Below, piece after piece: positions 19,793 through 36,700 of a stretch of 64,000 nucleotides of DNA. The stretch comes from Hyalangium ruber. GTDB lineage: Bacteria > Myxococcota > Myxococcia > Myxococcales > Myxococcaceae. How positions within the stretch are numbered: position 1 is the first letter of the stretch; the number at the start of each line of letters is the position of its first letter. The stretch covers positions 186,001 through 250,000 of the forward strand of contig NZ_JAXIVS010000007.1 of assembly GCF_034259325.1 (NCBI RefSeq), written 5' to 3'. The position numbers and the translations under genes were made by a program. The notes under the pieces were generated by a model that worked only from the letters and a program-made list of their open reading frames with translations, had not been told where the DNA came from and searched no databases.

Positions 19793-20272
19793 ATGGGCAC
19801 GCAATTGGTGATGTACGAAGAGGAGTTCACCAAGATCAACGCCGTTTGCGACCGCCTCACCAAGGACGCGAACGCGAAGGTGGTGTTCCTCGTCGACAAG
19901 AACGGGCAGCTCATCTCCTCGGCGGGGCAGACCCAGAACATCGACACCACCTCGCTGGCCTCGCTGACGGCCGGCAACGTGGCGGCGATGGGCGGGTTGG
20001 CCAAGCTGATCGGTGAGAACGAGTTCCCCAATCAGTTTCACGAAGGGGCGAAGGACTCGCTCTACATGACCATCGTCGGCAGCCGGGTGGTGCTGGTGGT
20101 CATCTTCGACAACCGCACCAGCCTGGGTCTCGTCCGCCTTCGCATCAAGAAGGCCAGCGACGAGCTGGCGAAGATCTTCGAGAGCCTGGTGAAGAAGACC
20201 GACAGTCCCGGGATCGGCTCGCCGTTCGCCGAGATCTCCGACGACGATATCGACAACCTCTTCAGCGAGTAA
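19793..20272 (+). CDS. mglB: MglB, roadblock-domain GAP of MglA
   Basis: A 159-residue roadblock/LC7 protein. Its sequence closely matches M. xanthus MglB (start [12 protein letters not shown]). MglB dimerises, is the GTPase-activating protein for MglA, and marks the lagging cell pole, setting the polarity of both motility engines; this is family knowledge. The roadblock fold spans about 10-135 ([11 protein letters not shown] strand, [16 protein letters not shown] helix, [16 protein letters not shown] strands). The acidic tail ([10 protein letters not shown]) matches the C-terminal segment known to contact MglA. mglA begins 12 nt downstream, so the two are cotranscribed. Confidence 0.97.
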
Positions 20273-20283
20273 CCCGGGAAGCC

Positions 20284-20871
20284 ATGTCCTTCATCAACTA
20301 CTCCTCCCGCGAGATCAACTGCAAGATCGTCTATTACGGGCCGGGTCTCTGCGGGAAGACGACGAACCTGCAGTACATCTACAACAAGACCGCCGCCGAC
20401 ACGAAGGGCAAGCTCATCTCGCTGTCCACCGAGACGGACCGCACGCTCTTCTTCGACTTCCTGCCGCTGTCGCTCGGTGAGATTCGCGGCTTCAAGACGC
20501 GCTTCCACCTGTACACGGTGCCGGGTCAGGTCTTCTACGACGCCAGCCGCAAGCTGATCCTCAAGGGCGTGGACGGCGTGGTGTTCGTGGCCGACAGCCA
20601 GATCGAGCGCATGGAAGCGAACATGGAGTCGCTGGAGAACCTGCGCATCAACCTGGCCGAGCAGGGCTACGACCTGAACAAGATCCCGTACGTGATGCAG
20701 TACAACAAGCGGGACCTGCCCAACGCGGTGACGGTGGAAGAGATCCGCAAGGCGCTCAACCCACGCAACATCCCCGAGTACCAGGCCGTTGCGCCGACCG
20801 GCGTGGGCGTGTTCGACACGCTCAAGGCGGTGGCCAAGCTGGTGCTCACCGAGCTGCGCAAGGGCGGCTAG
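20284..20871 (+). CDS. mglA: MglA, Ras-like polarity GTPase
   Basis: A 195-residue small GTPase nearly identical to M. xanthus MglA, the master switch of gliding and type IV pilus polarity at the leading pole. The P-loop is GPGLCGKTT (about 19-27). The switch II motif is TVPG, with Thr where canonical Ras proteins have Asp, an MglA hallmark. The NKRD motif (N-K-x-D) gives guanine specificity, and the SAK equivalent is APTG. No lipid anchor or signal is present. It is cotranscribed with mglB. The extreme conservation together with the gene order makes this the surest taxonomic marker in the window. Confidence 0.98.
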
Positions 20872-20899
20872 CCGACAGGAGAGCGGGCTGCCATCCAAC

Positions 20900-20922
20900 C
20901 CCCCGCCGCTGCGACGCGGGGG
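20900..20922 (+). terminator. GC-rich hairpin after mglA
   Basis: A 7-bp stem (CCCCCGC / GCGGGGG) with a 9-nt loop, starting 29 nt after the mglA stop codon and not followed by a T-run. It could dampen read-through into the downstream envelope genes; it is unproven. Confidence 0.3.
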
Positions 20923-20977
20923 CCAAAGGGTGGTATGACCGCAGTCCGGTCGGGCCGGCTCCCCGTCGAGGTCGCTC

Positions 20978-21808
20978 GTGCGTTCCGCTTCCTCCAGTTT
21001 CTGTCTCTTCGCGCTGCTGAGCGTCAGCCTCTGTCTGCCGGCGCTCGCGCAGGAGACACCCGCGACGCCCGCGCCCGCATCCCCCGCTACCGAGGTGACC
21101 GTCACCCCGCCGGCCTCTCCGGCCGCGGCTCCGGCTCCGACTTCAGCGCCGAGCTCGGAGGCCATCTCCCCCACCCCGCCGGGGCCCTCCGCGCAGACGG
21201 CGGACGAGGCCTTCGACACGCGCGTCAAGACGATGGAGGAGCAGGTCGTCGACTTGAAGGAGAAGATCTACCGCTCCAAGGCGCGGCTGCTGCTGTTGCA
21301 GGAGACGGTGCTGGGTGGAGACCTGTCCACGGGCGCCCGCGCGGTGCTCTTCCACAAGAACGAGATGGGCAGCTCGTTCGTCCTGGAGTCGGTGGCCTAC
21401 GCGCTGGACGGCGCGCCCATCTTCACCAAGGTGAACGAGAACGGTGACCTGGACAAGCTCGAGGAGTTCGAGATCTTCAACGGCCGCATCGTCCCCGGCC
21501 AGCACCAGGTGGCCGTGCGGCTGGTGTACCGCGGCAACGGCTACGGCGTGTTCAGCTACCTCGAGGGCTACAAGTTCAAGGTGCAGTCCAGCTACACCTT
21601 CAACGCCGAGGGCGGCAAGGTGACCACGGTGCGCGTGGTCGGCTTCGAGAAGGGCGGGCTCACCACGGACCTGAAGGACCGCCCCACGGTGCGCTACGAC
21701 ATCGAGGTGTCGCGCGACGCGCCCCAGCCCAAGAGTGCCCCGAAAGCTCCGGCGGCGACTCCGACGGCGGCCCCGGCCTCTCCGCCCTCCGCTGCCGAGA
21801 CGAAGTAG
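20978..21808 (+). CDS. Secreted Pro/Ala-rich protein with coiled coil, mgl-linked
   Basis: 276 residues. The signal peptide ends near LPALAQ, then a Pro/Ala/Ser/Thr-rich linker runs to about residue 75. A short coiled coil follows (about 80-110, MEEQVVDLKEKIYRSKARLLLLQET), then a beta-rich domain (about 115-240) with VSYAL- and VRLVYRGNGYG-type strands, and an Ala/Pro-rich tail. I recall this gene beside mglBA in M. xanthus, where databases called it a dihydrolipoamide acetyltransferase; that label only reflects the Ala/Pro linker, as no catalytic domain is visible. It is probably periplasmic and structural. Confidence 0.75.
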   Translation: MRSASSSFCLFALLSVSLCLPALAQETPATPAPASPATEVTVTPPASPAAAPAPTSAPSSEAISPTPPGPSAQTADEAFDTRVKTMEEQVVDLKEKIYRSKARLLLLQETVLGGDLSTGARAVLFHKNEMGSSFVLESVAYALDGAPIFTKVNENGDLDKLEEFEIFNGRIVPGQHQVAVRLVYRGNGYGVFSYLEGYKFKVQSSYTFNAEGGKVTTVRVVGFEKGGLTTDLKDRPTVRYDIEVSRDAPQPKSAPKAPAATPTAAPASPPSAAETK

Positions 21809-21818
21809 GGGTCCGCCG

Positions 21819-24188
21819 GTGAACGCGTCTGACCCTCGCGTCCTCTTCCTCTCGGCGGTGCTGTCCCTGGCCCCCGCCGCCCGGCCCGCGCTCGCCGCTC
21901 CGGAGACGGTGGAGGTGCGCGCCAGCCGCGACGTGAAGCGCCAGCTGGAGCAGGTGGACAAGCAGCTGCAGAACGCTGACGAGAACATCCGCTTCGTCGA
22001 GACGCAGTTCACCCAGCGCCCCGAGCCCAGCGACGAGGAGGCCAAGCTGCGGCGCTTCTCGGACGGAGAGATCCAGTACCTCCTGGGCGACTGGACGGCC
22101 GCCTCCGTCCTCTTCTACGACCTGGTGAGCGATCCGCGCTTCCGCGCTCACGCGCTCTACCCGGACGCCCTCTTCTATCTGTCCGACTCGCTGCTGGAGC
22201 AGCAGAACTACATCGGCGCGCGGCTCTACCTGCGCGAGCTGCTCAGCCTGCCTCCCACGGACCGTTATAAGGATGCGCTCAGCCGCTACCTGAACGTCGC
22301 CAGCCGGCTCAACCAGTTCGACGGCATCGACGACTACATCGCACAGGCCCGGAAGCTCTCCGGAGGCCAGCTCCCGCCCGAGCTGGCGTACGTCTACGCC
22401 AAGTGGCTCTTCCGGCGCGCGGACCTCAAGAACGAGGAGCGCATCGCCCGCGCCCGTGAAGCCTTCGAGCCGCTGATGCGCTCCAACATCCGCCTCGTGC
22501 GCCTGCAGAGCGCCTACCACCTGGGCGTGCTGTCCGTGCAGGCCGGGGACTTGAAGGACGCCATCGAGCGCTTCCGCGAGCTGGCCTCGCTGCCCGTCAA
22601 CGTGCCGGAAGAGGTGCGCATCCGCGAGCTGACGAACCTCTCCCTGGGCCGGCTCCTCTATGAGACGGGCAACCTGGACGAGGCGCTGGATCGCTACCAG
22701 CAGATTCCCGGCGAGAGCGAGTCGTTCGTGGACTCGCTCTATGAGGTGTCCTGGACGTACGTGAAGAAGGGCGACTTCAGCCGCGCCAAGAACGCCATCG
22801 ACATCCTGCTGCTGGTGGACCCCGAGTCGTCGTTGGCCCCCGACGCGAAGCTGCTGCAGGGGCATCTGCTGCTCAAGCTGCAGCAGTACGAGGAGGCCAC
22901 CACCACGTACCAGGGCGTCATCGACACGTACGGCCCGGTGCGCAACAAGCTCGACGAGCTGCTCTCCCGCACGATCGACCCGGTCGCCTACTTCGACAAC
23001 CTGCTGAGCCGCAACGAGCGGACGCTCGACCTGAGCGTGCTGCTTCCGCCGGTGGCGCTGCGCTACGCGCAGACGCAGGAGCAGGTCGCGGGCGCCGTGG
23101 CGCTGGTGAACGACCTGGAGAGCGGCCGCAAGGGCGTGGGCGAGGCGCGGGCGCTGGCCACGCGCATCCTCCAGGCGCTGGAAGAGCGCGGGCTGGAGAC
23201 GTTCCCCGAGCTGCAAGAAGGCTACACGCGCGCGGACGCGGTGGAGAGCGGCCTTACGCGCGTGGAGCAGGTGCTGGTGGCGGTGGAGTCCTCGGCGGTG
23301 CTGGAGCACCTCACGAGCGAGGAGCGCAAGAAGCTGGAGGCGGTGCGCGAGGAGCGCGAGGCCCTGGCGCGACGCTTTGCCCTGCTGCCCACCACGCAGC
23401 GCGAAGTAGAGGAGCGGCGCCAGCGGATGCAGGCGCGCGTGGACGAGCTGGACCGCGAAGCCTTCCGGCTGGGCTACGAGCTGCAGAGCCTGCGCGCCGT
23501 GGCCACCGCGGTGCGCAAGTGGGTAGAGGACACGCGCGCCGAGCGCAACACCCCGCCCGAGGAGGAGGTGGCCTTCCTCGGCCAGCTCCAGGCCGAGGCG
23601 GACACGCTGGAGGGGCTGCAGAGCGAGCTGGAGCACACCCGGCTCAAGCTGGCCGACGAGCGCAACGCCGTGGCCACCTCCGTGGGCGGCGAGGAGCTCA
23701 TCCGCCAGCAGTTCTACGAGGTGCTGCAGCGCGAGCACCTGCTGGTGGCCTCCTTCGCGGGGCGCCTGCCCGACGATGTGGCGGCGCTGATGACCCGCCT
23801 GCAGCAGGTGCGCGAGCGCACGGACGCGCTGCGCACCCGGGTGACGACGGCCAAGGGGCAGCTCCGCGCCCAGCTCGAGCGCCGAGGCCGCGTCATCCGC
23901 GACAAGGTGCAGGCCGAGCAGGCCCTGCTGGGGCAGTACGACACGGAGGTGGCCGCCGTGTCCGGGCAGGCACGCAACCTCGTGGGCCGCATCGCCTTCG
24001 ACAGCTTCCGCCGGGTGCGGCAGCAGTTCTACGACCTGGTCCTCAAGGGCGACGTGGGCATGGTGGACGTGGCCTTCACCCGCAAGCAGGACAAGACGGT
24101 GGAGATCCAGAAGCTGTCGGCGCAGAAAGACAAAGAGCTGCGCGAGCTGGAACGGGACTTCAAGGAAGTCCTCAAGGACGTTGAATAG
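21819..24188 (+). CDS. Periplasmic TPR / coiled-coil protein
   Basis: 789 residues. The GTG at 21819, with AGGGG 7 nt upstream, gives a signal peptide ending near ALAA and lies 10 nt after the previous stop codon. An upstream in-frame ATG would run back into the previous gene and produce an Arg-rich, unlikely N-terminus. The N-terminal half (about 25-420) is TPR/Sel1-like helical repeats (for example FSDGEIQYLLGDWTAASVLF and LGRLLYETGNLDEALDRY). The C-terminal half (about 480-789) is long coiled coil. The lack of membrane helices after the signal points to a soluble periplasmic scaffold, the first of three TPR proteins in a row downstream of mglA. Confidence 0.8.
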   Translation: MNASDPRVLFLSAVLSLAPAARPALAAPETVEVRASRDVKRQLEQVDKQLQNADENIRFVETQFTQRPEPSDEEAKLRRFSDGEIQYLLGDWTAASVLFYDLVSDPRFRAHALYPDALFYLSDSLLEQQNYIGARLYLRELLSLPPTDRYKDALSRYLNVASRLNQFDGIDDYIAQARKLSGGQLPPELAYVYAKWLFRRADLKNEERIARAREAFEPLMRSNIRLVRLQSAYHLGVLSVQAGDLKDAIERFRELASLPVNVPEEVRIRELTNLSLGRLLYETGNLDEALDRYQQIPGESESFVDSLYEVSWTYVKKGDFSRAKNAIDILLLVDPESSLAPDAKLLQGHLLLKLQQYEEATTTYQGVIDTYGPVRNKLDELLSRTIDPVAYFDNLLSRNERTLDLSVLLPPVALRYAQTQEQVAGAVALVNDLESGRKGVGEARALATRILQALEERGLETFPELQEGYTRADAVESGLTRVEQVLVAVESSAVLEHLTSEERKKLEAVREEREALARRFALLPTTQREVEERRQRMQARVDELDREAFRLGYELQSLRAVATAVRKWVEDTRAERNTPPEEEVAFLGQLQAEADTLEGLQSELEHTRLKLADERNAVATSVGGEELIRQQFYEVLQREHLLVASFAGRLPDDVAALMTRLQQVRERTDALRTRVTTAKGQLRAQLERRGRVIRDKVQAEQALLGQYDTEVAAVSGQARNLVGRIAFDSFRRVRQQFYDLVLKGDVGMVDVAFTRKQDKTVEIQKLSAQKDKELRELERDFKEVLKDVE

Positions 24189-24190
24189 CG

Positions 24191-27100
24191 ATGCGCCGCC
24201 TGTTGCTCACGCTGCTGACGCTGACGCCCCTGCTCGCCGCCGCCCAACAGCCGGCCGCGACGCAGGAGAGCGCCGCGTCACTGCCGAAGCCCTCGTCCGC
24301 GCCCAAACCCACCCCGGGGCGCTACCTGGAGGGCATGGGCCGCACTCCCGAGGAGGAGGCGCTGCTGCAGGACATCAGCCGCGCCATGCAGGCGTATGAG
24401 GAGGAGTCGCGCGAGTACCGGCGCGAGGTGCAATTGCTGGTGGAGCGCAAGTACGAGGAGAAGCGCAACACGCTGGCCTCCTCGTACGAGAAGGCCATCA
24501 GCGATCTGGAGCTCACCGAGCGCAAGGAGCGCCTGGACGCCATCGCCCGCTTCGAGGAGTTCCTGCGCCGCTACCCGAAGGAGCCGCGCTACGCGCCGGA
24601 CGTGATGTTCCGCCTGGCGGAGCTCTACTACGAGCGCTCCAGCGACCAGCACCTGGCGGCCCTGCGCGCCCACGAGGAGAAGCTCCGGGCGCTGGCCGAG
24701 AACGCGGAGGCCCCACCCGAGCCGGCGGTGGACTTCGCCCCGTCCATCGCCCTGTACTGGCGGCTCATCGCCGACTTCCCGGACTACCGGCTCAATGACG
24801 CCGCCTGGTACCTGCTGGGCTACTGCCAGGAGAAGCAGAACCAGTTCGACGAGAGCCGGGCCACGTACCAGGAGCTGATCGCCCGCTACCCCAAGAGCCG
24901 CTTCGCCACCGAGGCCTGGGTGCGCATCGGCGAGTACTGGTTCGATTCCTACAGCGATCCGTTCGCGCTGCCCAAGGCCGCCGAGGCGTACGAGGCCGCC
25001 ACGAAGGACACCACCCACCCGCTCTACGACAAGGCGCTCTACAAGCTGGGGTGGACGTACTACCGCCTGGACCGCTTCGACGACGCGGTCGAGAAGTTCC
25101 TCACGCTCGCCGACTTCTACGAGGCGCAGAAGGAGCTCCAGGGCGAGGAGGGCGGCGGCGGAGACCTGCGCGAGGAGGCGCTCCAGTACGTGGCCATCTC
25201 GCTGGCGGATGAGACCTGGGGCGGCATGGCCAAGGCCCAGGCCCTGTTCTCCCAGCGGGGCGCGCGTCCCTACGAGGCGGAGGTCTACCGGCGCCTGGGC
25301 AATGTCTGGTTCGACCAGACGAACCACACCGCCGCCATCGAGGCGTACCAGGTGGTGCTACAGAAGGATCCGCTGGCCAAGGACGCGCCGCAGGTCCAGC
25401 AGAAGATCGTCCAGGCGTACGAGCGGGACCGGAAGATGGCCGAGTCCTACGCCGCGGCGTCCCAGCTGGCCGAGGTCTATGCGCCGGGCGGCGCCTGGTA
25501 CAAGGAGCACGCGGGCGAGCCGGACGTGCTGGCCACCGCCGACGACCTGGCGGAGAAGAGCCTCTACAACACCGCGCTCTACCACCACCAGCAGGCGCAG
25601 GTGTTCAGCAAGGAGGGCAAGCTCGAGCAGGCCATGGTGGGCTACCAGGTGGCCGCCCGCGCCTACGGCGCCTATCTGGAGCGCTTCCCGCGCACCAAGG
25701 GCTCGTACGAGATGCGGTACTACTACGCCGAGTGCCTCTACTACTCGTTCCAGTTCGCGCTGGCGGCGCGCAACTACGAGGAGGTGCGCGACTCGCGGCT
25801 GGACGAGAAGTTCCGCAAGGACGCGGCCTTCAGCGCCGTCACCTCCTGGCAGCAGCAACTGGCGGCGGACCTGAAGGCTGGCACGGTGAAGGAGTACAAG
25901 CCCCTGCGCTCCACCGAGCGGCCCGAGGGCGAGGCCGTGCAGGTCATCCCCCTGGCGGCGACCGAGGCCCACCTGGTGTCGGCCTCGGATGCATACGTGA
26001 AGCTGCTGCCCCAGGACGAGAAGAGCCCGGGCATGGCCTACAAGGCCGCGGAGCTGTTCTACGCGCACAACGACTTCCCCGAGGCGCGCCGGCGCTTCGA
26101 GGCCATCGTGAAGAGCTACCCGAAGAACGAGGTGTCCAAGTTCTCCACCAACTTCATCGTGGAGAGCTTCCTCATCGACAAGGACTGGCGCAGCGTCGAG
26201 GAGGTCAGCGGCAGGCTCGCCGCGAACAAGGACGTCATCGATCCGTCCAGTGAGCTCTACAAGGACCTGGTGAAGTTCAAGCTCGCCGGCCGCTTCAAGC
26301 TGGCCGACCAGCTCATGGCCGAGGGCAAGTACGAGGAGGCCGCCAAGAAGTACATCCTCCTGGTGGACGAGGCGCCACGCCACGAGTTCGCCGACAAGGC
26401 GCTCAACAACGCCGCGGTCTGCAACGAGAACACCCGCCGATTCGACTCGGCGCTCAAGCTGTACGAGCGCATCTTCCGCGAGTACCCCACCTCCACCCTG
26501 GCCGACGCGGCGCTGTTCCGCGTGGCGGTGAACGCCGAGCAGTCCTACGACTTCGAGAAGGCGGTGGTCAGCTACCAGAAGCTGGTGAAGGACTACCCGG
26601 CCTCGAAGAACCGCGAGGCGGCGCTCTTCAACGCCGCGCGCCTGCTCGAAGGCCAGCAGCGCTACGCCGAGGCCGCCGGCGCCTTCCTGCGCTACGCGGA
26701 CCTGTTCCCCAACGCCGAGGACGCACCGAAGAACCAGTACCGCGCCGCCCTCATCTACGAGAAGCAGGAGGACTGGCGGGGGCAGATCCGCGCCCTCAAG
26801 GAGTTCGTCGACAAGTACGCCAAGAAGCCCGCGCAGGTGGAACTGGTGGTGGACGCCCAGCGTCGTATTGGCGATGCGCACAAGAAGCTGGGAAACGAGA
26901 AGGAGGCCGAGCGCGCGTGGGCCGCCGCCGCCGATGAGTTCGATCGTCGCAAGCTCAAGCCGGATGCCCAACCGCTGGCCGCAGACGCGGCCGCCTACAG
27001 CCGCTTCCAGCTCGCCGAGCTGGAGCTGCAGACGTTCGACAAGTTGAAGATCAGCGGCTCGGGCAAGGCGCTGGAGCGCAGCTTCACCGCCAAGCGCAGC

Positions 27101-27565
27101 GCGGTGAAGACCGTCAACGAGGCCTACGCCAAGGTCTACCCGTACAAGCGCCTGGAGTGGACGCTGGCGGCCCTCTACCGGCGCGGCTACGCCCTGGAGC
27201 GCTTCGCCACCACCGTCATCGAGACGCCCGTGCCGGCGGACGTGAAGCGCCTGGGCGAGGAGGCCGTGGTGGCCTACCAGGACATGGTCGCGCAGCAGAC
27301 GGCGACCCTGGAGGACGCGGCGGTGGAGAGCTACACGACCACCCTCCAGGAGGCGCGCAAGAACCGCGTCTCCAACGAGTGGACGCGGCGCACGCTCGAG
27401 GCGCTCAACCGCTTCCGCCCCAAGGAGTACCCCGTGCTCAAGGAGCCCAAGGAGGCCATCGCCTTCGAGGGCACCTACCCCGAGGGCATGGTGGGCAGCC
27501 TCCTCGGGCCGCAGCGCGTCGAGGAACAGGCCCCGCAGAAGCTCAGTGGTGGAGGTGACAAGTGA
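24191..27565 (+). CDS. GltD/AgmU-like periplasmic TPR protein
   Basis: 1124 residues with a signal peptide (cut near LLAAAQQ), then TPR-type helical repeats over nearly the whole length, interrupted by a coiled segment around 75-110. TPR consensus is visible in YLLGYCQEKQNQFDESRATY and in FDSALKLYERIFREYPTS. Size, export signal and TPR content, together with the following lipoprotein TPR, small protein and FHA/TonB-like gene, resemble gltD (agmU) in the gliding-machinery cluster. This copy sits behind mglBA instead of in the gltDEFGH cluster I recall, so I call it a paralogue, not the orthologue. It starts 2 nt after the previous stop codon, and its stop overlaps the next start by 3 nt. Confidence 0.75.
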   Translation: MRRLLLTLLTLTPLLAAAQQPAATQESAASLPKPSSAPKPTPGRYLEGMGRTPEEEALLQDISRAMQAYEEESREYRREVQLLVERKYEEKRNTLASSYEKAISDLELTERKERLDAIARFEEFLRRYPKEPRYAPDVMFRLAELYYERSSDQHLAALRAHEEKLRALAENAEAPPEPAVDFAPSIALYWRLIADFPDYRLNDAAWYLLGYCQEKQNQFDESRATYQELIARYPKSRFATEAWVRIGEYWFDSYSDPFALPKAAEAYEAATKDTTHPLYDKALYKLGWTYYRLDRFDDAVEKFLTLADFYEAQKELQGEEGGGGDLREEALQYVAISLADETWGGMAKAQALFSQRGARPYEAEVYRRLGNVWFDQTNHTAAIEAYQVVLQKDPLAKDAPQVQQKIVQAYERDRKMAESYAAASQLAEVYAPGGAWYKEHAGEPDVLATADDLAEKSLYNTALYHHQQAQVFSKEGKLEQAMVGYQVAARAYGAYLERFPRTKGSYEMRYYYAECLYYSFQFALAARNYEEVRDSRLDEKFRKDAAFSAVTSWQQQLAADLKAGTVKEYKPLRSTERPEGEAVQVIPLAATEAHLVSASDAYVKLLPQDEKSPGMAYKAAELFYAHNDFPEARRRFEAIVKSYPKNEVSKFSTNFIVESFLIDKDWRSVEEVSGRLAANKDVIDPSSELYKDLVKFKLAGRFKLADQLMAEGKYEEAAKKYILLVDEAPRHEFADKALNNAAVCNENTRRFDSALKLYERIFREYPTSTLADAALFRVAVNAEQSYDFEKAVVSYQKLVKDYPASKNREAALFNAARLLEGQQRYAEAAGAFLRYADLFPNAEDAPKNQYRAALIYEKQEDWRGQIRALKEFVDKYAKKPAQVELVVDAQRRIGDAHKKLGNEKEAERAWAAAADEFDRRKLKPDAQPLAADAAAYSRFQLAELELQTFDKLKISGSGKALERSFTAKRSAVKTVNEAYAKVYPYKRLEWTLAALYRRGYALERFATTVIETPVPADVKRLGEEAVVAYQDMVAQQTATLEDAAVESYTTTLQEARKNRVSNEWTRRTLEALNRFRPKEYPVLKEPKEAIAFEGTYPEGMVGSLLGPQRVEEQAPQKLSGGGDK

Positions 27566-29055
27566 GCGCGTCCCGCCTGCTGACCGCCTGCCTGGCCCTG
27601 CTGCTGGGTGGCGCCTGCGCTTCCACGCCCAAGCCCGCGCCCACGCCTCCACCGGCGGAGAGCGCCGCCACGAGCACCCCCGCGCCCACGGAGAGCGCGC
27701 CCACTCCGGGAGCCGCTCGCCCCTCCGAGCCTGCCACCTCCGGCGGCGCCCAGGTGGTGAAGACGGTACCCGCACCATCGGCCACGCCCTCGGTCGAGCC
27801 GAGCCCTGCCCCTCCCCGGCCGCAGGCCACGGGCGCGCGGGGAGACTTCGAACGCGCGGTGGAGATCGCCCGACGCGGAGAGCTGGAGGCCGCCGAGCGG
27901 GGCTTGGAGGCCCTGCTGGAGGCCAACCCCAAGCTGGACTACGCCTGGACGAACCTGGGCGTGCTGCGCGAGCGCAAGGGCAAACCGGAGGAGGCTGAGC
28001 GCGCCTACCGCAAGGCCCTGGAGCTCAAGCCCGAGCAGGAGTCCGCCTGGGACTTCCTCACCCGGCTCTACTGCCGCACTGGCCGCGCCTCGCGCATCGA
28101 GGCCGAGCTGCGCCAGAAGCTGGAGGCCAAGGCCGACTCCGCGAGCATGCGCACCTCCCTGGCCCTGGCCCTGCTGCACCAGCAGAAGCTGGAGTCGGCC
28201 GCCACCGAGGCCAAGCGCGCCCTCAAGGTGGAGGAGCGCTACGTGAAGGCCATGCAGGTGCTCGCGCAGGTGTACTACCGCGAGAAGAAGTTCGAGCTGG
28301 CCCGCATGGTGCTGGAGAACGCCCGCGCCATCGACACGCAGGACGCGGCCACCCACAACGCGCTGGGCCTGGTGCAGCTGGCCCTCAAGGCCCGCCCCCT
28401 GGCGCTGGAGAGCTTCAAGCAGGCCGCGCAGCTGCGCCCGGACTTCGCCGAGGCGCGCAACAACTTCGGCGCCATGCTCAACGAGGCCCAGGACTACCCA
28501 GCCGCCATCACCGAGCTGGAGGCCGCCGTGCGCTCCGCGCCGGACTTCGCCTCCGCCCGGCTCAACCTGGGCAACGCCTACCGGGGCACCGGGGATTTCG
28601 TCCGCGCCAAGGACGAGTACGGGCAGGTCATCAAGCTCCAGCCCCAGCTGGCCGACACCTACTTCAACCTCGCCATCCTCTACCTCGACCTGGAGCCGCA
28701 GGGCATGGACACCCTGGAGCGCTTCAAGGCGGCCATCACCTGGTTCGAGCAGTACAAGGGCAAGGGGGGCAAGGACGAGCGCGTGGAGCAGTACGTCAAG
28801 GACGCCCAGAAGGGCATCGACAAGGAAGAGCGTCGGCGCGAGCGAGAGAAGCGCGATCAGCTCCGCAAGGCCCAGAAGGCCGAAGAGGACCGCAAGAAGG
28901 CCGAGGAGGAGGCGAAGCAGGCCCAGCAGGCCGCCCCCTCGCCCTCCGAGCCGGCGACCGCCACGGCGACACCGGACAAAACGTCCACACCTCCCAGCAC
29001 ACCCTCTGCCACCCCTACCCCGGGCTCGGGTAAGCTGACCTCCGACGATAAGTAG
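27562..29055 (+). CDS. GltE/AglT-like TPR lipoprotein
   Basis: 497 residues. The lipobox LGGAC places the lipid-modified Cys at about residue 19, followed by an Ala/Pro/Thr linker to about 95. Residues 95-380 form about seven TPRs (AWTNLGVLRERKGKPEEAERAY, HNALGLVQLALKARPLALESF). A highly charged Glu/Lys/Arg coiled tail (about 410-460) and a Thr/Pro-rich end follow. The GTG start overlaps the preceding stop codon. Lipidation plus TPRs and the gene order match the GltE/AglT position of the gliding complex; the function here is inferred from that parallel. It is predicted to be anchored in a membrane and face the periplasm. Confidence 0.75.
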   Translation: MSASRLLTACLALLLGGACASTPKPAPTPPPAESAATSTPAPTESAPTPGAARPSEPATSGGAQVVKTVPAPSATPSVEPSPAPPRPQATGARGDFERAVEIARRGELEAAERGLEALLEANPKLDYAWTNLGVLRERKGKPEEAERAYRKALELKPEQESAWDFLTRLYCRTGRASRIEAELRQKLEAKADSASMRTSLALALLHQQKLESAATEAKRALKVEERYVKAMQVLAQVYYREKKFELARMVLENARAIDTQDAATHNALGLVQLALKARPLALESFKQAAQLRPDFAEARNNFGAMLNEAQDYPAAITELEAAVRSAPDFASARLNLGNAYRGTGDFVRAKDEYGQVIKLQPQLADTYFNLAILYLDLEPQGMDTLERFKAAITWFEQYKGKGGKDERVEQYVKDAQKGIDKEERRREREKRDQLRKAQKAEEDRKKAEEEAKQAQQAAPSPSEPATATATPDKTSTPPSTPSATPTPGSGKLTSDDK

Positions 29056-29066
29056 AGGCCCCGCCC

Positions 29067-29312
29067 ATGCGCACCTTCCTCGCACTCCTTCTGATGATGG
29101 CCGCCCCCGCGCTCGCGCAGGACTCGGGCGACGCCCAGGGTGCCAAGAAGAAGAAGGTCATCCGCCTGGATGCCCTCACCGTCGAGGGAAAGATCCAGAA
29201 GCCCCAGGCCTTCTACATCCTCCAGCGCTCGAACCTGAACTTCGAGGAGCTCAACCGGCCCGAGAGCTTCGTTCCCAAAGTCGTCCAGAGCGTGGACAAG
29301 CAACCTTTCTAG
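29067..29312 (+). CDS. Small exported GltF-like protein
   Basis: 81 residues. The signal peptide ends at APALAQ, leaving a mature part of about 62 residues. After a short Gly/Lys stretch (KKKKVIRLDAL) comes VEGKIQKPQAFYILQRSNL and a short C-terminal segment; no cysteines or enzyme motifs. The motif of a charged strand followed by a P-x-A-F/Y-Y-I-L-x-R-S stretch recurs in small proteins placed between the TPR lipoprotein and the FHA/TonB-like gene in gliding-type clusters (GltF position). It lies 11 nt after the TPR lipoprotein and 17 nt before the next gene. Probably a periplasmic linker; the function is inferred. Confidence 0.7.
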   Translation: MRTFLALLLMMAAPALAQDSGDAQGAKKKKVIRLDALTVEGKIQKPQAFYILQRSNLNFEELNRPESFVPKVVQSVDKQPF

Positions 29313-29329
29313 GGCGGCCCCAGAAAACC

Positions 29330-30676
29330 ATGGCTTCACCCCAGTCCCAGCCCAGCAAGTTGTTGCGCGTCGGCATCATCCAGGCCGACCGCATCCTCGA
29401 GGAGCGTCACGTCCTCCGGGACGACGTCACCATCGGCCACGACGCGAAGAACACCATCGTCCTGCCGCCCTCCGACGACCTGCCGGCCAAGTTCGCCCTC
29501 TTCGAGAACCGCAACAACCAGTACCAGCTCGTCTTCGACGACACGATGCAGGGCCGGGTGAACCTGGGCTCCTCGGACGTGGACTTCGACCGGCTGCGCA
29601 AGCAGGGCCTGGCCCAGGAGCGCGGCACCAACTACGTGCTGCCCCTGCAGGAGAGCGCCCGCGGCAAGGTGGACCTGGGCGACCTGACCCTCTTCTTCCA
29701 GTTCGTCTCGCCCGTGCCCGAGGCGGACAAGCCCAAGCTGCCGCCGGACGTGTCCGCCGGCTTCTGGAAGGGCCTGGACCGCACCTTCTTCCTCATCCTC
29801 GGCGTCTCCCTCTTCCTGCACTTCGCGTGGGGCGCCTACGTCTTCGCCGCCCAGCCACCGCCCGAGCCCGAGCTGACGCTGGACGAGCTGGAGGACCGCT
29901 TCGTCCGCGCCGACATCATCCCCAAGCAGCCGCCCAAGCAGGAGCAGGTGGCCGAGGCCCCCCAGGCCGAGGAGAAGCAGCAGGCCAAGGAGGACAAGAA
30001 GGATCCGAGCGAGGCCAAGCCCGCCGAGAGCAAGTCCGCCGACCCCGCGGAGCGCAAGGCGGAGGTCATCAAGAAGGTGTCCGGCAAGGGCCTGCTGAAG
30101 ATCCTCGGCTCCTCGGGCGACGGCAGCGGCGGTGCGTTCGCGGACGTGCTCGGCGGCAGCACTGGCGGCGGAGAGATCGCCGAGGCGCTCGCGGGCGCCG
30201 GCGGCGTGGGCGTGGCCACCGCGGAGTCCATCGGCGCTGGAGGCCCCAAGGGCGGCGGCGCGGGCCAGGTGGCCGGCATCGGCGAGCTGGGCACCAGCGG
30301 CGGCGGCAAGGTGGACCTGGGCGCCAAGAAGGAGACCGCTGTCTCGGGACGGGTGAGCGACTCGACCCCCGAGGTGGAGAGCTCGGACGTGGATCGCGAC
30401 GCGCTGACGCGCTACGTGAAGGCGCGCCTGAAGGCCATCCAGGGTTGCTACGAGAAGGAGCTCAAGCGCAACCCCAACCTCAAGGGCAAGGTGGTGGTGC
30501 GCTTCAGCATCATGCCCTCCGGCCGCACCGGCAACATCGACGTGGAGGAGAACACGCTGGGCAATGACGCGGTGGGCAGCTGCATCCGCACCGTCATCCG
30601 CAGCTGGGTGTTCCCCTTCAAGCCGGACGACGAAGTGCCTGTCGCCTACCCCTTCGTCTTCTCTCCCGCGGGGTAG
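29330..30676 (+). CDS. GltG/PglI-like protein: FHA-like, TM, TonB-like C-terminal domain
   Basis: 448 residues. The N-terminus (about 10-130) is an FHA-like sandwich (VTIGHDAKNTIVLP and a following FALFENRNNQYQLVF segment). One membrane helix lies at about 143-168, then a Glu/Lys/Pro-rich periplasmic spacer, a Gly-rich stretch (about 240-340), and an AgmX/PglI C-terminal domain at about 355-445 (Cys-Tyr-Glu start, FSIMPSGRTGNI, SWVFPFKPDDEV). This is the domain order of GltG/PglI, the inner-membrane gliding protein whose TonB-like part spans the periplasm. The kinase at 13.1-14.9 kb shares the C-terminal domain. No proton-channel motor genes (aglRQS) occur in the window. Confidence 0.82.
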   Translation: MASPQSQPSKLLRVGIIQADRILEERHVLRDDVTIGHDAKNTIVLPPSDDLPAKFALFENRNNQYQLVFDDTMQGRVNLGSSDVDFDRLRKQGLAQERGTNYVLPLQESARGKVDLGDLTLFFQFVSPVPEADKPKLPPDVSAGFWKGLDRTFFLILGVSLFLHFAWGAYVFAAQPPPEPELTLDELEDRFVRADIIPKQPPKQEQVAEAPQAEEKQQAKEDKKDPSEAKPAESKSADPAERKAEVIKKVSGKGLLKILGSSGDGSGGAFADVLGGSTGGGEIAEALAGAGGVGVATAESIGAGGPKGGGAGQVAGIGELGTSGGGKVDLGAKKETAVSGRVSDSTPEVESSDVDRDALTRYVKARLKAIQGCYEKELKRNPNLKGKVVVRFSIMPSGRTGNIDVEENTLGNDAVGSCIRTVIRSWVFPFKPDDEVPVAYPFVFSPAG

Positions 30677-30694
30677 CTCCCAGAGAGGGGCAGC

Positions 30695-31138
30695 ATGGAG
30701 AAGCTGGACGTCATCACCGCTTCGCCGCTGTTCGAGATGCTCTCCCAGGAAGAGCTGGCGCACCTGGCCGAGCTCGCCGGGCAGCGCCGCTACGCCGCCG
30801 GCGAGGTCATCTTCGAGGAGGGAGCGCTGGGCGACAGCCTCTTCGTCATCGTCAAGGGCGAGGTGGAGGTGGTGCATCGCGAGGGTGACGCGGTGCGCCC
30901 CATCACCGTGCTCACCTCGCCAGCCTTCTTCGGGGAGATGAGCGTCATTGACAAGGAGTACCGCTCGGCCACCCTGCGAGCGCGCACGGACGCGGAGCTG
31001 CTGCAGCTCACCATGAAGGAGCTGGGGCGCTTCCGGCAGGCGCACCGCGACGGCTTCACCTTCATCGTCATCAACATCGCGCGCATCCTCTCGGCCCGGC
31101 TGCGCGAGGCCAACGCGCGTCTTGCGGGCAACGCCTGA
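30695..31138 (+). CDS. Cyclic nucleotide-binding domain protein
   Basis: 147 residues forming essentially one cyclic-nucleotide-binding (CNB) domain. Visible features: the beta-roll with FEEGALGDSLFVIVKGEVEV, the phosphate-binding cassette around FFGEMSVIDKEYRSATLRA (Gly-Glu and Arg conserved) and a C-terminal helix. There is no DNA-binding helix-turn-helix, so it is not a Crp/Fnr transcription factor but a stand-alone sensor of cAMP, cGMP or a related nucleotide. It follows the GltG-like gene by 18 nt and is probably in the same operon. The partner is unknown. Confidence 0.85.
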   Translation: MEKLDVITASPLFEMLSQEELAHLAELAGQRRYAAGEVIFEEGALGDSLFVIVKGEVEVVHREGDAVRPITVLTSPAFFGEMSVIDKEYRSATLRARTDAELLQLTMKELGRFRQAHRDGFTFIVINIARILSARLREANARLAGNA

Positions 31139-31188
31139 GCCCCCTCGTGCGTTGACACCCCCGCCCCTCGCTTCTACGCTCGCGGCGT

Positions 31189-31749
31189 ATGCGCATTGTC
31201 GGACTGCTGCCTGTGCTGCTCGTGGCGGGGTGGGCCGCCGCTCAGGGCACCAGGCCCGCGGCCCCTCCGGCTGCGCCCATGCCCTCGCTGCAGAAGGCCA
31301 GCGAGGTGCCGGATCCGGAGAAGCTCGAGCGCAGCGCCAAGGCCATCGCCGGCATGCGCACCGCGCTGCGCGAGGTGCTCGAGAAGCTCGAGGAGGCCCG
31401 CCGCACCAAGGACGTGGTGAAGCTCAACTGCGTCAACGAGAAGCTGACCCAGATCAAGGGCCTGCTTCGCATCTCCGAGCAGGCGGACGTGGGGCTGCAG
31501 GAGTCGGTGGCCCGCAAGGAGACGACCTCCGCCGAGCACGAGTACACCAAGGTGATGATCGCCCAGCAGAAGGTGTCCCAGCTGCGCTCGGAGACCGAGG
31601 AGTGCATCGGCCAGCTCGCCTTCCGCACCGACGAGAACCTCTCCGTCGAAGTCGAGGAGCCCCGGGACCTGCCCGGCGGTGATCCGACCAAGCCGCCCCC
31701 GCCGGGCGACGTCGTCGTCCGTCCGCCCCCCGCCAGTCCCACCCTGTAG
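31189..31749 (+). CDS. Exported coiled-coil protein of unknown function
   Basis: 186 residues. The signal peptide ends near GWAAAQ. A Pro/Ala linker precedes a helical, probably coiled-coil region (about 42-150) with two Cys (LNCVNEKL, EECIGQL) that could form a disulfide in the periplasm. The tail is Pro-rich. I do not recognise the family. The gene sits between the cyclic-nucleotide-binding gene and the export beta-barrel gene on the same strand. Confidence 0.7.
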   Translation: MRIVGLLPVLLVAGWAAAQGTRPAAPPAAPMPSLQKASEVPDPEKLERSAKAIAGMRTALREVLEKLEEARRTKDVVKLNCVNEKLTQIKGLLRISEQADVGLQESVARKETTSAEHEYTKVMIAQQKVSQLRSETEECIGQLAFRTDENLSVEVEEPRDLPGGDPTKPPPPGDVVVRPPPASPTL

Positions 31750-31895
31750 GTTGGCGCGGGTTTCGTTACCCACCAGGCCGGACGGTGTCCAAGAAATTTG
31801 TGCGGGGGTCGGAGGGGTGCGTGTTATGACCCCCCTCAGGGCCCCAGTCAGCGGTAGGGAAAGGTAGCCGGCGTGCCGGCGTGATCGTCCGACTC

Positions 31896-33164
31896 ATGAC
31901 GCAGTCTGGCAACAAGTGCTGGGCTCTGTGCGTGCTGGTATTGGGGATGCTGGGTCCCGCCGTGGTCGGGGCGCAGACTCCGCCTGTGCCCACGGGCGGC
32001 AACGGCTTCAAGGTGGGAGAAGGGCGGCTGCACCCCTTCTTCGACCTGGAGACGCGGCTGGACACGGGCGTGGGCTACTTCCTGAACGAAGCCACGCCCG
32101 AGCCGAATGATCTCGAAGAGGGCCCCTCGAGCGAGATGGTGCTGCGGCTGCGGCCCGGGCTGAAGCTGGACGTGCCCTCCTCCAAGCTCACCTTCAACGC
32201 GTCGGCGCGGCTGGAGTACGTGCTCTACACGGGGCTCTTGGAGCCCCAGTCGACGTACGGCTCGCACCTGGAGGGGGCGGCGGACATCTCGGCCCACTTC
32301 AACCCCGAAGCGCCGTTGAGCTTCGTGCTGTCCGACCAGTTCATCCGCTCGGACCAGACGCGCAACGTGGCGCTGGGCGCGGGGGTGCTGTCGCTCTTCA
32401 ACGAGCTGCGCGCCAAGATGCCCTACCGGCCCGGTGGCGGCGCGGTGGAGATCACCCCCGAGCTGGCCTGGGCGGTGGAGTTCTTCTCGCCCATCGGCCT
32501 GGCCGTGCCGGTGGGGTGCGAGGAGGGCGTGTGTGATCCCGACACGGTGGACGCCTTCGACTACAACAACCTGCACGCGGGGGTGGATGGGCGCTGGCGC
32601 TTCCTGCCGAAGACGGCGCTGGTGCTGGATGTGGACCTGGACCTGCGCAACTACTTCCAAGGGGACAACCCGGATGCGCTGCTCCTGCGCAGCATGGCGG
32701 GGCTGGCGGGCCTGGTGTCTCCGAAGATCGCCGTCACCGCCAAGGTGGGCTGGGGCTTCAACTTCGGCTCCACGGGGGGCAACACCTTCCTGGCGCAGCT
32801 CGAGGGCACCTACCTCTACAGCCCGACGATGACGTTCAAGGGCGGCTACTACCGCACGCTCAACCCAGTGGCCGCCTATGGGCTGTACCGCAATGATCGG
32901 GGTTATGTGGAGGCGCGGGCGCTGTTCGGCGGCAAGCTGGTGATGCATGGGTACCTGGCGGCCGACTTCCTGGGCTTCTACACCGCGACGGCGCCTCGCT
33001 CCGACACGCTGGTGAGCGTGGACCTCGGGCCGGAGTACCAGTTCAAGCCGTGGCTTGTGGGCGCGGCGGGCTACTTGCTGAGCACGCGGTCGTCCTCGAT
33101 CGAGGGCACGGGCCTGAACTACACGCGCCACGAAGTCTACCTTCGGCTGACCCTGGTGTACTGA
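31896..33164 (+). CDS. Outer-membrane beta-barrel, Wzp-type polysaccharide porin
   Basis: 422 residues from the ATG at 31896 (MTQSGNKCWAL), which gives a good signal peptide ending at VVGAQ; a GTG at 31881 would add five residues. The mature protein is a series of amphipathic strands ending in aromatic residues (LEYVLYTG, VDLDLRNYF, GYYRTLNPV) and finishes in LTLVY, as outer-membrane barrels do. It is followed 9 nt later by a short polysaccharide-export (OPX) lipoprotein. In M. xanthus such barrel/OPX pairs (WzpX-WzaX, WzpS-WzaS, WzpB-WzaB) export secreted polysaccharides, and I recall the pair near mglBA as WzpB/WzaB, for the biosurfactant polysaccharide. Assignment rests on that synteny. 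Confidence 0.78.
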   Translation: MTQSGNKCWALCVLVLGMLGPAVVGAQTPPVPTGGNGFKVGEGRLHPFFDLETRLDTGVGYFLNEATPEPNDLEEGPSSEMVLRLRPGLKLDVPSSKLTFNASARLEYVLYTGLLEPQSTYGSHLEGAADISAHFNPEAPLSFVLSDQFIRSDQTRNVALGAGVLSLFNELRAKMPYRPGGGAVEITPELAWAVEFFSPIGLAVPVGCEEGVCDPDTVDAFDYNNLHAGVDGRWRFLPKTALVLDVDLDLRNYFQGDNPDALLLRSMAGLAGLVSPKIAVTAKVGWGFNFGSTGGNTFLAQLEGTYLYSPTMTFKGGYYRTLNPVAAYGLYRNDRGYVEARALFGGKLVMHGYLAADFLGFYTATAPRSDTLVSVDLGPEYQFKPWLVGAAGYLLSTRSSSIEGTGLNYTRHEVYLRLTLVY

Positions 33165-33173
33165 GCCCCGCCG

Positions 33174-33785
33174 ATGAGAACCCCTCCCGCCCTGCTGCTT
33201 GCCCTGCTGATCGCGGCGGCACCCGCGTGCCGCTCGGCCGCGCCGACACCGGACCTGCCCCTGCCCACGGCGGAGGAGGCCCGCTCGGTGCCGGCGACGA
33301 GCAACACCCTGGGCCCGGGGGACCTGGTGGAGGTGCGCGTCTTCCAGGAGCCGGACCACTCGGGCATCTGGCGCGTGTCGCCCGAGGGCACGATCGACTA
33401 CCCGCTGTGCGGCAAGGTGGAGCTGGCGGGCCGCACTTCGAGCACGGCGGCCGACTCGCTGCGCGAGTGCCTGGGGCGCTACGTGCGCAGGCCCCAGGTG
33501 TCGGTGCTGATCCGCGAGTACAACTCGAAGAAGATCTTCGTCTTCGGCGAGGTGCAGAAGCCGGGCACGTTCCCGTACGAGGGGGAGATGACGATCATCC
33601 AGGCCGTCACCCTGGCGGGCGGCTTCACCAAGCTGGCCGCCAAGAACAGCACCAACGTGACGCGGCTGGTGGAAGGCCAGGAGCGGAAGATCCGCGTGCC
33701 GGTGGAGGACATCGGTGTGGGGCGGGAGAAGAACTTCCTGCTCCAGCCCGGCGACATCGTCTTCGTGCCGGAGAGCTTCTTCTAG
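33174..33785 (+). CDS. Short (class 3) polysaccharide export lipoprotein, Wza-like
   Basis: 203 residues. Lipobox AAPAC puts the lipidated Cys at about 19. The Poly_export domain (about 40-115: [25 protein letters not shown]) and one SLBB domain (about 118-175: [13 protein letters not shown]) follow, and the protein ends at [12 protein letters not shown]. It lacks the C-terminal helix that forms the outer-membrane pore of E. coli Wza (379 residues). This is the class 3 OPX type that relies on a separate beta-barrel, which is the gene before it. The predicted location is the periplasmic face of the outer membrane. Its stop codon shares the CTAG with the convergent kinase gene. Confidence 0.87.
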
Positions 33786-36700
33786 GCGGAGCAGCCTTCC
33801 ATGCTCGCGCCCCAGCGCTGACGGGCCAGGTGGAGCACGCGGGCGTTCTCGGGCACGTGGCACAGGAAGCGCTCGCGGGTGGCCGCGTCCGGAAGGTCTC
33901 TCGCCCGCTGGTGCAGACACTCCATGGCCAGGCGCAGGGCCTCTTCCGCCGCCTCCTCATCCCTCTGTGCGTGACAGGCCTGGAACAGGGCCAGGCAGAG
34001 GCCCACGGAGGCCACGCCCGCTCTGCCCGTCCGCTCCAGGGCGCGCATGCCCTGCTCCGCCTCGCCCCGCGCCTCCAGGGCACGCCCTCGCGCCAGTAGC
34101 GCCGTGCTCCGGCAGGTGCGCGCGAGGAGCTGGTAGGTGCTGAGCGCGCTCAACAACTCGCACGCCTCGCGGGCCCACTCCTCGGCGTCGGAGGGCAGGT
34201 CCTGCGCGAGGGCCACCCGTGCGAGCGCCAGGGCGGCGAGGCCCCGGTGCATCGGGCTCGTTCGCTGCGTCTCCCGTGCGTGGAGCGCCATGCGCCGGGC
34301 CTCCTCGTGGTGGGTGGGCTCGGCGCTCCCGGATAACACCAGGGCCAGGTGGACATGGAGCCAGGTATCGGCCTGATCGAAGTACCTGGCCCTCTCCAGT
34401 CCCTCCCTCATCACCTGCACGGCCCTGGACAGCTCGCCCAACGCCGCCAACCCCAGCCCGCATACGGTGCGCGCGACGAACTCCTGCCGCTCCGTGCCGA
34501 GCGTGTCGAATGCCTTCATCCCCTCTTCCGACGCGACCTGACACCACCAGGGACGGGCATCGAAGTAGTACGCGAAGGAGCCCTGCCCTGCGTGCCACCA
34601 TGCGTGGGCGAAGCTGTCAGGCCCTGGGTATTTCCTCGCCATCTGGCCCATGCGCTCCAGGACGCGCAGAGCCTCGTTTCGCTGGCCGGTCCATTGGTAC
34701 AGGACACAGAAGTGAGCGATCGCCTCGCAGTAGACGGCCACGGCCTCGGGCGCGGGCTCGATGCCCAACAGCTGGTGCCCCAGCGCGACCGCCTCCTGGG
34801 TGCGACCGCTCTTGGCGTTCATGATGATGAGGTTGCCCACCACCTGAATCCATGAGGCGCTGCCCTCGGCCAGCTTGGGGAGAACCTCGCGGCCCACCGC
34901 GATGGTGCGCTCGAAGTCCTCCGTCCAGAAGGAGATCTCCGCCTCCAGCACCTGGAGCTCAATGAGGGCCTGGTCCGTGGGCTCACAGTCCAGCGCGGCC
35001 TTCAGACACTTCAGGGCCCCTTGCATGTCCGTGCGCTGCCGCTCGCAGTTCTGCTTGCAGGCCCGGGTGAAGAACTGGAGCGCCTTCTGCTTCTGTCCAC
35101 CGAGCTTGTAATGCTCTGCCAGCACCAGGGGCTCGGACTCGCCGGCGGACTCCAGCCACTCACCGGCCCGCTGGTGCCAGCTGAAGCGGAGGCTGTCGGG
35201 CACGAGGCTGGCGGCGGCATCGCGCACCAAGGCATGGTGGAAGCGGTACTCGACCTCCGCCGAGAAGCGGCTGCAAGCCTGGGGCTGCACCACCTCCAGC
35301 TCCACCAGGCGTTGCAGCGAATGCGCCAGCTCCTCCGAGGAGAAGTCAGGTGCTAGCAGCGCCCCCACCCCTCCCGCCCAGAAGGTGCGCCCGAAGATGC
35401 TGGCGGCCTGCACCACGCGCCTCGCCTCCGGCTCCAGGCGCTGCAGGCGCGACTGGAGCATGGCCAGCACCGAGCCGGGAGGTTCCTCGCCCTGCCCTTC
35501 CGCCACCCCACGAATCAGCTCTTCCAGGAACAGGGCATTGCCAGCGGCCAGCCCCACCAGGCGTGCCACCACGTCCTCTGGCACCTGGGGCCCGAGCACC
35601 TCATGCACCAGCCGGGCGCAGGCCTTCTGACTCAGGCCCCGCAGCGAGACCTCCTGAGCGCTCCGCCCCCACAGCTCCGGGAACAGCTTCTTCACCTCGG
35701 GCCGTGCCAGAGCCAGCACCATGAGCGGCTGCTCGGAGAACTCTCGCAGCACCTCCTCCATCAGCTTGATGCTGGGCCCATCGCTCCAGTGCAGATCCTC
35801 CAGCATCCACAGCACCGCCCCCTGGGCACACTCGGCCCTGAGCCAGACGACCAGCGCCCGTGTCACCAGGGCGCTCATCAACTGGGGATCCTCCCGGGCC
35901 GCGCGCAGCCGGGGGTTGTCCTCCGAGGGGAAGGGAATGGCGCACAGCTCGCCCAGGAACTCGGTGACTTCCTTGTGCAGCGAGGCAGGCAGGTGACGCG
36001 TCAGCCGCTGGGCCAGTCTGGCTCGGCGCACCTCCAACGGCTCGCCATCCACCACCTCGCAGAGCCGGCGCACCGCCTGTCCCAGCAGGCCATGGGCCGT
36101 GCTGGTGTTCATGGGCTCACCCCGCCCCAGCAGCATGAGCGGTGGCCGGGCGTGGCGCTCCAGGCGCCGCAGCAGCTCATGGCGCAGGCGGGACTTGCCC
36201 ATCCCCGCCGGAGCGGTGATCAGCAGGACGCGAGAGGCGGAGTCCTCCACGCAGCTGGTGAACGCCAGCTCCAGGAGGGCCAGCTCCTGCTCACGACCGA
36301 CGCAGGGGGTGGGCCGGCCCAGCAGCGGACGGGACTCATCCGCTTCCAGGTTTTCGCAGCGCAGCAGGAAGCGGCTCGAGGAGGCCCGCTCCATCTGGAA
36401 CCGCGCGCCCAACAGGCCCGCCGTGGTGTCATCCACCAGCACCGAGGCATCGGAGACCAGGGCGTGGGTCTTCTGGAGGTGGAGCAGCTCGCTGGCCTTG
36501 TCGACCGCCTCTCCCGCGGGCAGGAGACGATCGCGCAGGCTCAGGCCGGTGGTGAGCGCCACGAAGCTGTCCGGCCAGCGCTCCCGGACGGACAGCGCGC
36601 AGTGCGCGGCCAGGGAGGCCTGATCATTGGCCGAGCCACGCTCCAGGACGAAGGTGGCCACCAGAGAGCCATCGGCCAGCAAGGCGGCCTGTGCACTGTG

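Follow-up and report, generated by a model that had tools for sequence, protein, structure and literature searches.

A Glt/Nfs-like gene cluster behind mglBA in Myxococcota, its likely motor and a linked polysaccharide exporter

Introduction

The gliding machinery Agl-Glt and the spore-coat machine Agl-Nfs of Myxococcus xanthus are among the closest described relatives of a gene cluster that lies behind the polarity-switch genes mglBA in Hyalangium ruber, within a stretch of 64,000 nucleotides (positions 186,001 to 250,000 of contig NZ_JAXIVS010000007.1, our C7, in a genome of 10.8 Mb; hereafter the window, in whose numbering positions are given). The available text of Luciano et al. 2011 (PMC3169522) lists G3 (nfs), G4, G5 and the motor M2 as further M. 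xanthus paralogues of the gliding clusters, G4 and M2 without a known function, and names MXAN_1922 as the GltD homologue of G4; in that part of the main text neither mglB nor M2 as a motor of G4 is mentioned, and we found no mention there of a beta-barrel paired with an outer-membrane polysaccharide export (OPX) protein. AglR binds both GltG and NfsG, while MXAN_3003 binds neither (PMC3858216), so M2 is without a known partner. In a separate line of work MXAN_1916 and MXAN_1915 were described as WzpB and WzaB of the biosurfactant polysaccharide (BPS) pathway (PMC9603273, PMC7310880), and wzaB mutants are BPS-defective (PMC7310880).

Here we show that the mgl-linked cluster of Hyalangium contains Glt/Nfs-type genes together with a WzpB/WzaB-type export pair, and that across Myxococcota it is mostly retained or lost together with M2. 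As a cluster it has already been published as G4; its motor assignment, its linkage to an exporter, its separate GltG clade and the joint loss are new, and no report of the exporter and M2 ties was found in the literature searched. We propose, with a probability of about 0.6, that it belongs to a third surface machine of the Agl-Glt/Nfs type, with M2 as its motor and a role in polymer export.

Results

Gene content of the cluster

Twelve genes on one strand, all with intact reading frames, extend from 19793 to 33785. They are separated by 2-18 bases or overlap by 4, bar three larger gaps, which follow mglA (106 bases) and precede Y (50 bases) and the barrel gene (146 bases).

19793..20272, +: mglB, roadblock/LC7 GTPase-activating protein, orthologue of MXAN_1926 (Robl_LC7 E 2e-20; NF052242 MglB model)
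20284..20871, +: mglA, Ras-like GTPase, orthologue of MXAN_1925 (95-100% identical MglA in other Myxococcaceae)
20978..21808, +: X, exported protein with coiled coil and beta-sandwich, the marker of the cluster (AlphaFold, profile searches)
21819..24188, +: C, GltC-like exported TPR protein (NF033756 gliding_GltC E 2e-20, 73 bits)
24191..27565, +: D, GltD-like large periplasmic TPR protein of the MXAN_1922 type, 1124 amino acids, signal peptide (colinear with the genome's own GltD and NfsD; D tree)
27562..29055, +: E, GltE-like TPR lipoprotein, lipobox LGGAC (NF033758 E 1e-37)
29067..29312, +: F, GltF/CglF-like small exported protein, 81 amino acids (NF033764 E 4e-7)
29330..30676, +: G, GltG-like protein with FHA domain, one transmembrane (TM) helix with TonB-like S-x3-H, and TonB-like C-terminus (NF033760 E 2e-50)
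30695..31138, +: N, cyclic-nucleotide-binding-domain protein, conserved downstream of G (PF00027 E 7e-21)
31189..31749, +: Y, exported protein, conserved immediately upstream of the barrel
31896..33164, +: outer-membrane beta-barrel, WzpB-type, at the position of MXAN_1916 (barrel-like Pfam match; OPX pairing phylum-wide)
33174..33785, +: class-3 OPX polysaccharide export lipoprotein, WzaB-type, at the position of MXAN_1915 (Poly_export E 4e-21, SLBB E 4e-13)

A first-pass annotation, made from the sequence alone, had described a large periplasmic TPR protein, a TPR lipoprotein, a small exported protein and an FHA/TM/TonB-like protein at 24191-30676, in the gene order of the gliding machinery. 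Family models and predicted folds place all four where it had them, and the order D-E-F-G is that of the glt (L187) and nfs-like (L191) clusters of the same genome. The extent was drawn too short, as the cluster continues past 30676 with N, Y, the barrel and the OPX gene, and the genes do not stand directly behind mglBA, since X and the GltC-like gene intervene. That GltA and GltB are lacking was borne out: models of GltA, GltB and GltH matched none of the cluster proteins of the window, the rest of the genome being outside this search, and where these are missing the cluster has a WzpB-type barrel. The claim that GltC is lacking as well was wrong because a GltC-like gene is present at 21819-24188; GltC is moreover a TPR protein and not a barrel. 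As proposed, the gene set looks trans-envelope.

When genes are counted from mglB along the MXAN numbering, D falls at 1922, the barrel at 1916 and the OPX at 1915, and the count from 1926 to 1915 fits exactly. Because these two independent anchors agree, the cluster is most probably the orthologue of the published G4, and on the same gene order and numbering the export pair would correspond to WzpB and WzaB of the BPS pathway. X is present as a single full-length copy in the genome and matched no family in Pfam or NCBIfam; its AlphaFold model reaches a predicted local distance difference test score (pLDDT) of about 82-97 (block means) across residues 121-250 and gave weak, transthyretin-like matches in Foldseek. 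Hyalangium versicolor has an identical MglA.

Relationship to Glt and Nfs proteins

The comparative set comprised 117 Myxococcota genomes, isolates or metagenome-assembled genomes (MAGs) of unequal completeness, in which a profile search with X found it in 96. Cut-offs were chosen by eye after viewing the score lists (200 bits for X, 230 bits for M2-type motors, E below about 1e-45 for WzaB-type OPX proteins). A tree of 58 GltG-type proteins places all 33 from the cluster on one side of a branch with support 100/98, and the Glt clade (99/98) and Nfs clade (99/99), each of which includes deep lineages, both stand apart from this mgl-linked clade. A GltD tree that had no more than three outside rows gives the same picture. 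Since the mgl-linked GltG clade is separate from Glt and Nfs at phylum depth, the machine is, judged from these sequences, a phylum-old paralogue and not a recent copy. Phylogeny had been suggested as the check on a Glt/Nfs paralogy, and both trees support the relation.

The C-D-E-F-G core characteristic of the Agl-Glt/Nfs class lies within one gene cluster. Its GltD-like protein is colinear with the GltD and NfsD of the same genome over about 950-1000 amino acids, at 25% identity (E 1e-59 and 1e-77). The GltE-, GltC- and GltF-like proteins score below the curated cut-offs of their models (130 of 225, 73 of 450 and 30 of 90 bits), which by sequence makes them relatives and not equivalogs. For the GltG-like protein the AgmX/PglI C-terminal domain lies above its cut-off (NF033768, 103 bits against 40) and the equivalog model NF033760 below (172 bits against 650), the alignment covering 225-649 of 650 positions only; the N-terminal part of canonical GltG is absent. 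Its AlphaFold model has a cytosolic FHA beta-sandwich (11-126), a TM helix (151-173), a flexible linker and a TonB-like C-terminus, and Foldseek returned FHA structures among the top matches (E 0.007-0.05, probability about 1) as well as the TonB C-terminal domain fold. The TM pattern S-x3-H occurs in TonB, where the residues matter for motor coupling; it is present in 20 of 33 cluster GltG proteins versus 5 of 25 other GltG-type proteins.

Both Glt-type and Nfs-type GltG proteins were observed in deep Myxococcota families (G020, G023, G034, G038), which suggests that the Glt/Nfs split predates recent myxobacterial duplication. A second GltG-type gene (L189; G000:C3:623844-625691), scoring 842 bits to the GltG model, is solitary, no D or E homologue having been found nearby.

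The probable motor

There are no motor genes within the window cluster, and in this the first-pass annotation, which saw no AglRQS-type motor, was right for the locus; a matching motor is however found elsewhere in the genome and, in other lineages, inside the cluster. In deep lineages about 2 kb between F and G encode ExbB and two ExbD proteins, an arrangement seen in the ten deep loci that were read fully, and ExbB is present in-cluster in 20. Two ExbB/ExbD/ExbD motors are encoded by the Hyalangium genome: L198, whose proteins of 246, 162 and 195 amino acids match AglR, AglQ and AglS (245, 162 and 194), and L199, with 256, 189 and 195 amino acids, taken as M2. A typical in-cluster motor scores 214 bits to L199 versus 125 to L198. 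In the ExbB tree the Myxococcia M2 clade (97/95) nests inside the in-cluster motors (98/97, 96/85), with AglR/M1 separate. Because of this nesting, M2 is most likely the relocated motor of the mgl-linked machine, and a single move out of the cluster would be the simplest history. An AglRQS-type motor, ExbB with two ExbD, thus accompanies the transducer genes either in-cluster, in deep lineages, or as a co-occurring M2 elsewhere. Some in-cluster motors (L155, L174) have Asn in place of the TM Asp of the Q-type ExbD, the S-type retaining its Asp.

The exporter

The barrel and OPX genes downstream of Y form a pair across the phylum, a short class-3 OPX gene adjoining that of an outer-membrane barrel as in BPS export, and deep lineages retain the order G, (coiled coil), N, (FG-GAP protein), Y, barrel, OPX. 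Whenever an OPX profile match shares a contig with X, which is so in 47 genomes from ten families, it follows X on the same strand at a distance of no more than 25 kb; in the 34 remaining genomes that have both, the two are on separate contigs, which says nothing where an assembly is fragmented. OPX is followed by Wzc in G005 and by Wzy, Wzc, a glycosyltransferase and sugar-modifying enzymes in G014, a genome in which the machine lies away from mglA. In the available text of the two BPS papers (PMC7310880, PMC9603273) mglA is unmentioned and the location of wzaB behind mglBA and G4 is undiscussed.

Two further genes absent from the window were observed in this part of the cluster: one for a coiled-coil-like protein of about 335 amino acids between G and N in twelve loci, and one for a large protein of about 850-1300 amino acids after N in deep lineages (L148, L150, L155, L163, L325), with FG-GAP repeats in L325, the only member scanned.

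Joint retention and loss

X, M2 and the OPX occur together in 51 of the 69 genomes of the order and class and are all absent from 15, and 3 genomes are mixed (G062, G095, G104). Transducer, M2 and OPX are thus mostly retained or lost together, with about three or four independent losses as estimated from taxonomy. mglBA was kept in all 15 genomes without the three components. In G084, G113 and G048 the locus is reduced to mglB-mglA-N, machine and exporter having been excised; no WzaB-type OPX was found in these genomes, whose remaining OPX proteins are at most 38% identical. In Anaeromyxobacter-type loci (L183, L185, L186) mglBA is followed by what looks like a remnant of X and by a short D-like gene; M2 and a WzaB-type OPX are lacking, and the cluster has apparently decayed or been altered.

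Linkage to mglBA

mglBA followed by X-C-D-E-F-G, or by the part of it within the contig, was found in Myxococcaceae and in several deep MAGs labelled 'Deltaproteobacteria', and not in the MglA loci of Geobacter, Sorangium, Minicystis and Nannocystis. Chance is excluded as the cause of this linkage, because 17 GTDB families have mglA immediately before X in the same orientation; within the family of Hyalangium this holds for all 42 X-bearing genomes, and some lineages have an X whose start overlaps the mglA stop. In several families the machine is found at a site apart from mglA, and in a few lineages it occurs with a divergent MglA (L171, L177) or with none detected. Hence the position behind mglBA that the first-pass annotation saw is conserved phylum-wide, while its tie to the polarity switch is weak: mglBA outlasts the machine in 15 of 15 cases, the machine can stand elsewhere, and the M. 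xanthus homologue is without a motility phenotype. The ties to the polysaccharide exporter and to M2 are stronger.

Two other MglA-related observations come from elsewhere. In one genus a second, longer MglA paralogue (about 55% identical) is separated by about 5-6 kb from a weakly X-like protein encoded on the opposite strand (L239:10637-17939, L240), with no Glt-like genes adjoining, and the G5 cluster of the Hyalangium genome (L192) has no MglA beside it. Presumably M. xanthus MglA is a member of Group 1 of the Ras-like GTPases. The available text of a survey of Ras-like GTPase neighbourhoods reports that those of Group 1 MglA vary widely, and no mention of the linkage described here was found in it (PMC4316618).

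Neighbouring genes

A Ser/Thr kinase gene with an AAA domain (33782-37765, -) is convergent with the OPX gene, overlapping its end by 4 bases. Between 44000 and 56000 the G+C content of the window falls to about 0.61-0.65 from 0.69, and the genes there, encoding two C5-cytosine methylases, a GmrSD-type protein and a HATPase_c_3 protein, probably form a restriction/defence island.

Discussion

The locus probably encodes the envelope-spanning transducer of a third, phylum-old machine of the Agl-Glt/Nfs type. We infer that its products would assemble into one complex in which the M2-type ExbB/ExbD/ExbD proton motor pulls or rotates the GltG-like protein through its TonB-like TM helix and C-terminal domain, with the GltC/D/E/F-like periplasmic proteins and X transmitting force to the outer membrane. 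There the WzpB-type barrel and WzaB-type OPX would export a polysaccharide made by a Wzx/Wzy pathway, most likely BPS in the case of Myxococcia, and the machine would move, extrude or place this polymer, by analogy with the movement of spore-coat polymer by Agl-Nfs (PMC3858216). MglA and MglB may set where or when the machine runs, a tentative addition that is suggested by linkage and that we hold about half as probable as the machine itself, MglA persisting independently of it.

Several observations weigh against this proposal. Neither a polar MXAN_1922 mutation nor deletion of M2 caused a motility defect, according to the available text of the 2011 study (PMC3169522), while wzaB mutants alter swarm behaviour; if the cluster is a continuous operon, the polar mutant might be expected to show the wzaB swarm change, unless wzpB-wzaB have their own promoter in the 146-base gap. 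In G095, mglBA, barrel and OPX remain after loss of the transducer and M2, so export can dispense with the machine; G011, for its part, has M2 but no X. The pairwise Fisher p values for co-occurrence of X, M2 and OPX over the 117 genomes (5e-15 to 3e-10) are uncorrected for relatedness.

If the transducer were instead a polarity-linked trans-envelope complex, run by MglA in motility or reversal control and with no special role in polymer export, the adjacency to mglBA in 17 families, the overlap of mglA and X, and the persistence of the pairing where the linked MglA is divergent (L171, L177) would all be accounted for. We nevertheless consider this unlikely: mglBA is retained whenever the machine is lost, in G014 it is the OPX and not mglA that stays with the machine, and the polar MXAN_1922 mutant has normal motility. 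It is improbable, too, that the transducer works with M2 in envelope integrity or as a Tol-like machine, its linkage to mglBA and to the export pair being left from an old operon without joint function. The TonB-type TM helix and C-terminal domain of the GltG-like protein would suit such a machine, as would an exporter without machine in G095 and a motor without X in G011, but machine, M2 and OPX were lost jointly in the same genera, a pattern that the inertia of an operon would hardly produce, M2 being encoded at another chromosomal site in Myxococcia. A recent, partly degenerate glt operon duplicate of little use, which might explain the short GltG-like protein and the scores under curated cut-offs, was ruled out by the GltG tree and deserves next to no weight given the separate phylum-depth clade, the intact frames, the 25% identity to GltD/NfsD and the presence of X in 96 of 117 genomes.

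An M2-driven machine for polymer export would join G4 and M2, reported in 2011 as paralogues without a known function, and wzaB, so far called an orphan, into one testable unit, and several genes that lack an assigned function would gain a role. Polysaccharides in general might then be what cell-surface motors of this type serve, and the proposal would offer a hint of the route by which a polarity GTPase acquired control over motility. A wider version, in which MglA switch, TolQR-type motor, Glt-like transducer and OPX/barrel exporter are one phylum-old unit, with polysaccharide placement as the early job of MglA and gliding a later one, strikes us as doubtful.

Comparison with described systems

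With Agl-Glt the cluster shares homologues of C-D-E-F-G and an identical D-E-F-G order; it differs in that no GltA/B/H/I/J/K were found in the window cluster, in its separate GltG clade and in the normal motility of the M. xanthus mutant. G4 matches in position, MXAN_1922 standing three to four numbers from mglA/mglB (MXAN_1925/1926), but in the available text of PMC3169522 it is a paralogue cluster with no function assigned. M2 (MXAN_3003-3005) has the same ExbB/ExbD/ExbD composition, and its Myxococcia clade is nested in the mgl-linked in-cluster motors, whereas the Myxococcia copy itself lies elsewhere on the chromosome without an assigned partner. As in WzpB/WzaB, a barrel gene immediately precedes a short class-3 OPX gene, at a distance of 9 bases in the window versus 23 reported in M. 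xanthus, though wzaB was described there as orphan-like and 1.016 Mb away from the BPS cluster (PMC7310880, PMC9603273). Agl-Nfs (nfsA-H) uses AglRQS (M1) and NfsA/B/H (PMC3858216), while the window cluster has X and no detected GltA/B/H relatives and tracks M2; the two nevertheless share the C-D-E-F-G core, a TonB-like GltG and a separately encoded motor, and Agl-Nfs, too, works on a polymer of the cell surface that an OPX system exports (PMC3858216).

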